DNA of 64,000 nt. Origin: Miscanthus floridulus (Eukaryota > Streptophyta > Magnoliopsida > Poales > Poaceae). The stretch is taken from positions 35,101,835-35,165,834 of the forward strand of contig NC_089593.1 of NCBI RefSeq assembly GCF_019320115.1, read 5' to 3'. Shown piece by piece: positions 38,658-39,188 of this stretch (its first letter is position 1; each line of letters begins with the position of its first letter). The translations under genes and the position numbers were made by a program. The notes under the pieces are model-generated. The model searched no databases. It had not been told where the DNA came from and was given only the letters and a program-made list of their open reading frames with translations.

Positions 38658-39188
38658 ATGGCAAAGACCAAGGTAACCGCACGCAAGTCCATGGGGCCTC
38701 ATGGAGTCCCTCATCACCAGTTGGCACCACGAAACCATGAGCTTGGTGAAGGAAGTGCCAAGAACCTAGGAGATGAAGGATCTTCAAGCAACCCCACCAA
38801 CATTGAGAACCTTACCAAGGAGCTCAACACTCTTCGTCGGGCTCATGCCAAAGATCAAGAAGAGCTGGTGGAAATGCAAAGGGGCATCACCATGACCATG
38901 GAGCTACGGAATGAAGCCTGGACACGAGAGGATGCGGCCAATGAACGCGTCCATGAGTTGGAGTTCTACGTAGAAGACCTAGAGATGGACAATGCCATTC
39001 TTCATGAGAATGTCCACATGCTGTACGCTCAACTTCATCCTCCTCATGGGGATGGTGAAGTTACAGATGAAGAAATGATTGTAGATCCAGGAGAAGTCGA
39101 GAATGAAGAGGAGGATCCTGAGGAGTTAGTGTACTTCTTAGATGAAGATGAGGTTTCGTCCGATATGGGCATGGATGCCGAAGACTGA
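38658..39188 (+). CDS. Leader ORF with histone H3-tail-like N terminus, coiled coil and acidic tail
   Basis: An intact 176-residue ORF between primer site and gag. Residues 2-13 read AKTKVTARKSMG. The histone H3 tail begins [12 protein letters not shown], so 9 of 12 positions are identical, including the Lys equivalent to H3K4 and the ARKS box around H3K9; 'HQLAPR' at about 20-25 also parallels H3 'KQLATK'. The Lys for Arg2 (AAG) and Met for Thr11 (ATG) differences are each one G-to-A or C-to-T step from an H3-like codon. Residues ~50-130 are rich in Leu/Glu/Lys/Arg with heptad-like spacing, a probable coiled coil. Residues ~132-176 are strongly acidic. There is no histone fold. Role unknown; binding of chromatin readers or of the element's own chromodomain is a hypothesis. 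It is the only intact ORF in the element. Confidence 0.8.
   Translation: MAKTKVTARKSMGPHGVPHHQLAPRNHELGEGSAKNLGDEGSSSNPTNIENLTKELNTLRRAHAKDQEELVEMQRGITMTMELRNEAWTREDAANERVHELEFYVEDLEMDNAILHENVHMLYAQLHPPHGDGEVTDEEMIVDPGEVENEEEDPEELVYFLDEDEVSSDMGMDAED

Follow-up and report, generated by a model that had tools for sequence, protein, structure and literature searches.

ORF0, the leader protein of a retrotransposon in the grass Miscanthus floridulus, begins with a stretch that resembles the N-terminal tail of histone H3, and relatives of the protein share this resemblance. We consider it probable that ORF0 is a conserved, retrotransposon-encoded H3-tail mimic that acts in dimeric form as a decoy or adaptor towards host readers of the H3 N terminus; the tail was perhaps acquired from a host H3 gene. 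The retention of the H3 likeness among relatives hints that the element may engage the host chromatin machinery. The element lies within the 64,000-nucleotide stretch of DNA analyzed here (hereafter, the window), for which an initial annotation had proposed the H3 likeness; taken as a whole, that earlier hypothesis is partly supported, in that the likeness itself is confirmed and its interpretation is supported in part.

The element is a 12.7 kb LTR retrotransposon of the chromodomain-bearing Ty3/gypsy type that spans positions 34756-47449 and is flanked by a 5 bp target site duplication, ATATG, read from the sequence at 34751..34755 and again at 47450..47454. The 5' LTR (34756..38272, plus strand; ~3.5 kb, TGTAACACC...GCCACA) and 3' LTR (44016..47449, plus strand) were delimited by blastn and by reading their ends, with the 5' LTR aligning to 44016-47447 in two blocks of 97.2% and 95.8% identity. 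A primer binding site, TGGTATCAGAGCGGT, which we take to be of the initiator-Met tRNA type, was read directly after the 5' LTR (38275..38289, plus strand). ORF0, identified by its translation and its homologs, comprises 176 amino acids and is open from ATG to stop (38658..39188, plus strand). The remaining coding pieces, all on the plus strand, comprise the start of gag, open up to its first stop (39349..39870; Retrotrans_gag PF03732, E 9.5e-7), a piece encoding protease and reverse transcriptase (40498..41721; RVP_2 and RVT_1), a piece encoding RNase H (41764..42330; RT_RNaseH), a piece encoding the zinc-binding domain and core of the integrase (42541..43377; Integrase_H2C2 and rve, the latter at 28.7 bits and thus under the cut-off of 32.6), and a chromodomain at the integrase C terminus (43723..43830; Chromo PF00385, E 4.9e-6). 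The order of protease, reverse transcriptase, RNase H, and integrase, with a C-terminal chromodomain in the integrase, is that of Ty3/gypsy chromoviruses.

The gag-pol frame (39349-43845) contains 12 stops, the last of which is its proper end; the other 11 are premature within ~1498 codons, indicating that gag-pol is broken in the window copy. ORF0 contains no stop in its 176 codons. However, just 1.3 stops would be expected at the gag-pol rate, and the openness of ORF0 therefore proves nothing; we rejected it as a sign of selection.

A second, related gypsy-type element occupies 12429-25805 on the minus strand, with apparent LTRs of ~4.3 kb that are 95% identical and a pol region 66-70% identical in DNA to that of the ORF0-bearing element. 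Screening of the window by tblastn with six relatives of ORF0 recovered positions 38658-39185 and otherwise only matches at E 2.3 or worse, such that this second element, in which ORF0 is not detectable by tblastn, provides a local control that lacks the leader protein. Additional scattered copies of at least one repeat, 91-97% identical, were identified around and beyond it (11517-12439, 26296-28647, and 48332-50377), which suggests nested insertion. Elsewhere in the window, positions 1-8600 comprise a satellite-like array with a period of ~887 bp and internal duplications of 155-156 bp, possibly a higher-order repeat, and an open reading frame of 221 codons is present on the plus strand at 61272-61937. 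A match to the precursor family of MIR6217, presumably a sorghum microRNA, at 53385-53612 (210.9 bits) directly adjoins a near-palindrome of 935 bp and 81% at 53633-54567, suggesting that the MIR6217 family is part of an inverted-repeat transposon. The MIR6217 match and the type of the leader ORF both point to a grass as the likely host.

The H3-like tail of ORF0 comprises codons 1-26 (38658..38735, plus strand), and its recognition rests on phmmer searches, a profile, shuffling, and conservation in relatives. In the window copy the N terminus reads MAKTKVTARKSMGPHGVPHHQLAPRN; it opens with AKTKVTARKSMG, and further along, shifted by one additional residue, come the P and the QLA of H3. The tail includes five lysine or arginine residues and neither aspartate nor glutamate. 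The original observations that 9 of the 12 residues after Met are identical to H3 in the same register, and that QLA recurs with an offset of one residue, were both confirmed, and 13 of 23 residues agree once a single insertion is allowed. Based on background residue frequencies entered by hand, the chance of at least 9 in-register identities in 12 is 1.9e-9, and local alignment of the tail to H3 scored 53 as compared to a maximum of 44 in 20,000 shuffles. When the 26 codons were used as a phmmer query against 177,635 distinct PDB sequences, all 19 matches at E<=10 were histone H3 or H3 peptides; the best E was only 0.11, and the window copy alone is therefore suggestive and not significant. 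The full-length protein as query returned no H3 at E<=10, indicating that the H3 signal is confined to the tail.

To place the window copy among its relatives, we draw on three protein searches covering 5.8 billion proteins, from which 210 relatives were listed, mostly on short contigs from ENA, JGI, and lgn. The search with the window protein yielded 79 homologs at E<=10, all of which were listed, and the other two contributed the best 120 of 698 and the best 120 of 244, the last of these having scored the 7992 candidates that shared most words. Distant members are under-sampled owing to the best-120 lists and the choice of word-sharing candidates, and the search words derived partly from the tail itself, which biases the set towards members that keep it. 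DNA of relatives was not detected in viral_contigs (with ORF0 and protease-reverse transcriptase queries) or in genome_contigs. When tails were called only above a score threshold and with Met as the first residue, 71 of the 211 proteins (the 210 relatives listed and the window copy) carry the whole tail, in 61 distinct forms that share descent and are not independent samples. Six further proteins begin within the tail, and 134 have no visible N terminus, either cut by the contig end or with the tail lost. Three proteins with partial tails (P0073, P0084, and P0089) are on contigs of up to 1.4-1.9 kb, suggesting that their first residues may be truly lost.

Absence of the pattern from relatives had been named in advance as a finding that would count against the H3 reading. 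Instead, it is present in four subfamilies (A-D, grouped by identity) and is not confined to the window copy. Subfamily A includes the window element, and its members are at least 79% identical at full length; subfamily B is 41-45% identical to the window ORF0; subfamily C is near B; and subfamily D comprises one sequence, P0208, that is 37% identical to the C query. P0208, the most distant relative listed, begins MARTKQAARKSSGPKGVPRHRLA, with Q5 and A7 as in H3 (it is the only listed relative with Q5) and with T6 and Q19 lost; the N terminus of a further relative, P0173, reads MARTKLTARKATEPKGVPRRQLA. Identity to H3 is 10/12 and 15/23 for P0208, 11/12 and 16/23 for P0003, and 10/12 and 16/23 for P0070. 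P0208 is thus nearer to H3 than the window copy (9/12 and 13/23) but no nearer than P0003 or P0070, and by itself it is no proof of capture.

The tails of P0003 and P0070 found H3 in the PDB at E 0.0013 and 5.6e-4, respectively (phmmer), each in an alignment that begins at the first residue and contains one gap. A profile built from 12 hand-picked tails, with no histone included, produced 139 PDB matches at E<=10, with a best E of 4e-8 (an H3 peptide) and full-length H3 at ~2e-6. The 60 matches listed of these 139 were all H3, H3/CENP-A chimeras, or one chain labelled Cse4. One column shuffle of the same profile, in contrast, found no histone in the PDB, its two matches being polymerases at E 1.2. 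When five tails were shuffled 20,000 times each, the H3 alignment score of the tail itself was never reached. The similarity expected of an H3 mimic is therefore a property of the family. A chance resemblance in one decaying copy, to which the value of 0.11 obtained for the window copy alone would lend itself, is exceedingly improbable given the conservation of the tail among relatives, the profile result, and the clean shuffled control.

Near-invariant positions in the 61 distinct tails are K4 (61), K9 (60), T3 (60), T6 (59), and A1 (59) and, further along, P16 (59), Q19 (57), L20 (59), and A21 (59). S10 (52/61), G12 (51/61), and T11 (41/61) are less strictly kept. Residue 2 is R in 23 tails, K in 24, and neither in 14; residue 7 is A in 27 and P in 32, the latter in B tails and in most C tails; and residue 14 is K in 35 and H in 26. 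Q, the H3 residue at position 5, is present in a single tail. At G13, A15, K18, T22, and K23 no tail has the H3 residue, with R occupying position 23 in 54. Since residues 2, 5, 7, and 14 vary, the exact ligand for any one known reader is not kept throughout. Residue 8 is R in 49/61 tails and H or C in the others, residue 17 is R in 44/61, and where the tail has lost an arginine the substitute is mostly H or C, a pattern consistent with decay of CG sites.

The initial annotation had further suggested that the ancestor of the tail was closer to H3, based on two of the differences seen in the window copy. Among 153 proteins, 53 carry a tail, of which 45 are distinct and 26 of these belong to subfamily A; within these 26, residue 11 is T in 23 and residue 2 is K in 24. 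M11 in the window copy does look like decay, in agreement with the suggestion, whereas K2 is the rule in its subfamily and is not decay.

The pattern of conservation also bears on two other explanations. The first is that the tail acts as a signal for nuclear import or nucleic acid binding, by way of the importin affinity of the H3 tail or of plain basic charge, with the surroundings of K4 and K9 incidental. K14 of H3 is said to matter for import, and residue 14 of ORF0 is K in more than half of the distinct tails; the tail is, moreover, basic and free of acidic residues. The 5'aORF proteins of sunflower and grasses are also predicted to be nuclear in the portion of PMC11728184 that treats them. 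Yet such a signal needs no near-invariant A1, T3, T6, and QLA at constant spacing from the start codon, and the uncharged residues of H3 are retained no less than K4 and K9, in contrast to the variable R8 and R17, making this explanation improbable. The second is that the conserved stretch is a signal at the level of RNA, for packaging or translation start, with the peptide as its by-product. Packaging signals may lie in the region after the primer binding site, and the tail-coding region is ~370 nt downstream of that site. Nevertheless, position 5 varies over I, V, K, L, M, and Q between almost invariant neighbors, as would fit constraint on protein, and an RNA signal gives no reason for an in-frame resemblance to H3 that starts at Met. 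We regard this second explanation as very improbable, well below the first.

Comparison of regions of ORF0 among 34 hand-chosen members (19 from A, 9 from B, 5 from C, and 1 from D) places the tail among its best conserved parts. Mean identities for the tail, linker, first part of the coil, core, and acidic end are, in that order, 0.77, 0.16, 0.22, 0.61, and 0.33 between A and B and 0.72, 0.15, 0.25, 0.59, and 0.36 between A and C. The tail is thus shared by four subfamilies despite a far-diverged linker and coil in subfamily A. In the comparison of B with C, the tail (0.81) is less distinct from the linker (0.65), coil (0.64), and core (0.61), with the acidic end at 0.49. In comparisons with D, tail and core identities are 0.63 and 0.63 for A, 0.65 and 0.70 for B, and 0.59 for both regions for C. 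The tail is consequently the best or joint-best conserved block in five of the six between-subfamily comparisons, the exception being B with D, where the core is better conserved. As judged from these identities, the tail is under strong constraint at the level of protein, together with the core. For ORF0 of four Oryza elements, the part of PMC3485330 that gives substitution rates lists a mean Ka of 0.2574 and a mean Ks of 1.6471, values that point to purifying selection there.

Downstream of the tail, ORF0 was described in the initial annotation as a coiled coil and an acidic end with no histone fold, a description that AlphaFold2, the heptad pattern, and composition all support. AlphaFold2 (46 sequences) predicts residues 1-45 of the window protein to be unstructured, residues 46-126 to form a helix, and the remainder to be unstructured, with block means of 95-98 over residues 51-120; for P0208 (26 sequences) it predicts the same plan, with a helix at 60-198. 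In the window protein, the 81 residues of this one continuous predicted helix (38793..39035, plus strand) have a heptad pattern in which a/d positions are 74% hydrophobic as compared to 28% elsewhere, in keeping with a coiled coil. In 5000 shuffles, the pattern was equalled 3 times for the window protein, 7 for P0001, 13 for P0070, 27 for P0081, and 0 for P0208, and the gap that separates subfamilies A and B within the coil is 14 residues long, which equals two heptads. The C-terminal end (39036..39185, plus strand) is predicted to be disordered and is acidic, with 22 aspartate or glutamate residues and no lysine or arginine in the final 50 residues of this protein and 19-23 acidic residues, again with no K or R, in the C-tails of five proteins. 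No Pfam histone match was obtained for the four ORF0 proteins scanned, and the AlphaFold2 model consists of one helix. Indeed, no Pfam family exceeded its cut-off in these four proteins; FAM76, Bestrophin_2, ATG16, and other weak matches all fell under their curated cut-offs and were rejected. The relative P0077 carries a precomputed ATG16 label.

The earlier hypothesis also had the leader protein bridging the integrase to the element, a role in which the chromodomain could bind a methylated H3-like tail. According to the part of PMC3350952 that classifies plant chromodomains, those of type II lack two of the three cage aromatics, and the Tekay clade has a type II chromodomain without Y24 and Y48 and with W45, along with the motifs EEXTWEXE and (K/R)X(L/T)RX(K/R). 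By hand alignment, the window chromodomain reads DEATWESE at the first motif (5 of 6 fixed letters) and QVTRRH at the second (2 of 4 fixed places), and within KVQWNQH the W is retained and the third cage position is occupied by H. On this alignment, the chromodomain of the element looks like the plant type II kind, with two of the three cage aromatics missing. Its matches to the chromodomains of MPP8 (E 0.008) and Clr4 (E 0.16) are weak. Bridging of the tail to the integrase through methyl-lysine is doubtful since the chromodomain seems to be short of two cage aromatics, and no result ties the tail to the integrase; this part of the hypothesis is unsupported.

How, then, might an H3-like tail be used? 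From proteins that start with Met-Ala, the Met is as a rule removed, and its removal from ORF0 would leave a free Ala1-(Arg/Lys)2-Thr3-Lys4 end as in H3. This end could be bound, and perhaps modified, by the host's readers and modifiers of the H3 N terminus, with K4 readers of the PHD-finger type and LSD1-like or SET enzymes as candidate partners. The element might thereby recruit H3 readers and modifiers to its own chromatin, or keep them off it. The predicted arrangement of a disordered tail on a long coiled coil implies at least a dimer that would display two H3-like tails, and the acidic C terminus, as modeled, could hold basic partners such as histones, nucleocapsid, or integrase. Ala7 is needed for HP1-like reading of K9. 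Because Pro7, which occupies that position in just over half of the distinct tails, should spoil such reading, while A1-T6 is intact, readers and enzymes of the K4 type are more plausible partners than K9 chromodomains; A1-T6, which includes K4, is also the part of the tail that is better conserved, and we rejected HP1-like reading of K9 as a general mechanism. An anti-silencing decoy or adaptor is the likelier use, the next candidate being a tether between the integration complex and chromatin.

Regarding origin, the tail, like that of H3, is encoded directly from the initiator Met, and it tracks H3, with one extra residue, to QLA (H3 residues 19-21). Given a similarity that runs through two blocks counted from a shared start codon, it appears likelier that the element captured the 5' end of the coding sequence of a host H3 gene than that the tail arose by convergence. 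Under convergence, the function would be the same, but the H3 likeness would have been selected for reader binding with no host H3 gene captured. Short linear motifs arise easily, the known H3 mimics SNAG and influenza NS1 are thought to be convergent, the similarity to H3 stops at about H3 residue 21-23, and P0208, for all its distance, is overall no nearer to H3 than members of A or B. Against this, the match to H3 comprises two separate blocks with a shared start codon and only one inserted residue, and we regard convergence as rather unlikely, if the most serious of the competing accounts. We hold more tentatively, at somewhat less than an even chance, a fuller version of the capture reading in which the captured tail-coding end of a host H3 gene was kept as a counterfeit histone, that is, a dimeric pseudo-nucleosome tail that the host would methylate and read and that would steer silencing or integration.

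Viruses, bacteria, and host regulators all provide known cases of histone mimicry. Mimics of the H3 tail include the ARSK tail of influenza NS1 and the ARK motifs of G9a and ATF7IP, and EZHIP is reportedly called an oncohistone mimic; like ORF0, these are non-histone proteins with a short H3-like stretch. Most viral and cellular H3 mimics copy 4-10 residues, often at internal or C-terminal positions. ORF0, in contrast, copies about two dozen residues, does so at a true N terminus and in a protein of a mobile element, and is conserved across subfamilies. The SNAG domain of Snail and GFI1 is likewise an extreme N-terminal mimic of the H3 tail, one that docks into LSD1, but it is H3-like in shape more than in letters and is found on zinc-finger proteins, whereas in ORF0 the letters match H3 and the carrier is a coiled coil. 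ORF0 and H3 themselves are alike in their first two dozen residues, with one inserted, and differ in that ORF0 has no histone fold. Among the papers listed in searches of the literature, none reports a transposon-encoded histone mimic in its title or at the start of its abstract.

By position, ORF0 of the window element can be likened to ORF0 of Retrosat2, RIRE3, and RIRE8 and to the 5'aORF of Tekay elements, in that it has its own ATG and lies between the 5' LTR and gag-pol. As in that ORF0 family, gag-pol is preceded by an extra reading frame and the LTRs reach ~3 kb or more; at ~3.5 kb they resemble those of Retrosat2 in exceeding 3 kb. PMC3485330 reports ORF0 from these three elements and from relatives in maize, sorghum, and Brachypodium, gives LTR ends of TGTCACACCC...GGGCGTGACA for Retrosat2/RIRE8 proper, as opposed to TGTAACACC...GCCACA here, and describes the origin and function of ORF0 as not known, suggesting a frameshift or the capture of unrelated DNA. 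A 2024 sunflower study of 5'aORFs in Tekay elements describes, in the portion that compares species, no amino acid similarity between sunflower and grasses and notes a DRBM-like structure for the maize and sorghum 5'aORF (PMC11728184). Unlike the hydrolase-like or DRBM-like structures suggested in those portions of the published work on ORF0 and 5'aORFs, the AlphaFold2 model obtained here is one helix with disordered ends, and a word search of the main texts of PMC3485330 and PMC11728184 did not find 'histone'.

The origin and function of extra-ORF proteins in general are likewise described as not known in the part of PMC11728184 that discusses them. A conserved H3-like tail gives ORF0 a testable function and a possible origin. 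If our interpretation is true, a mobile element copies the very molecule whose marks silence it.
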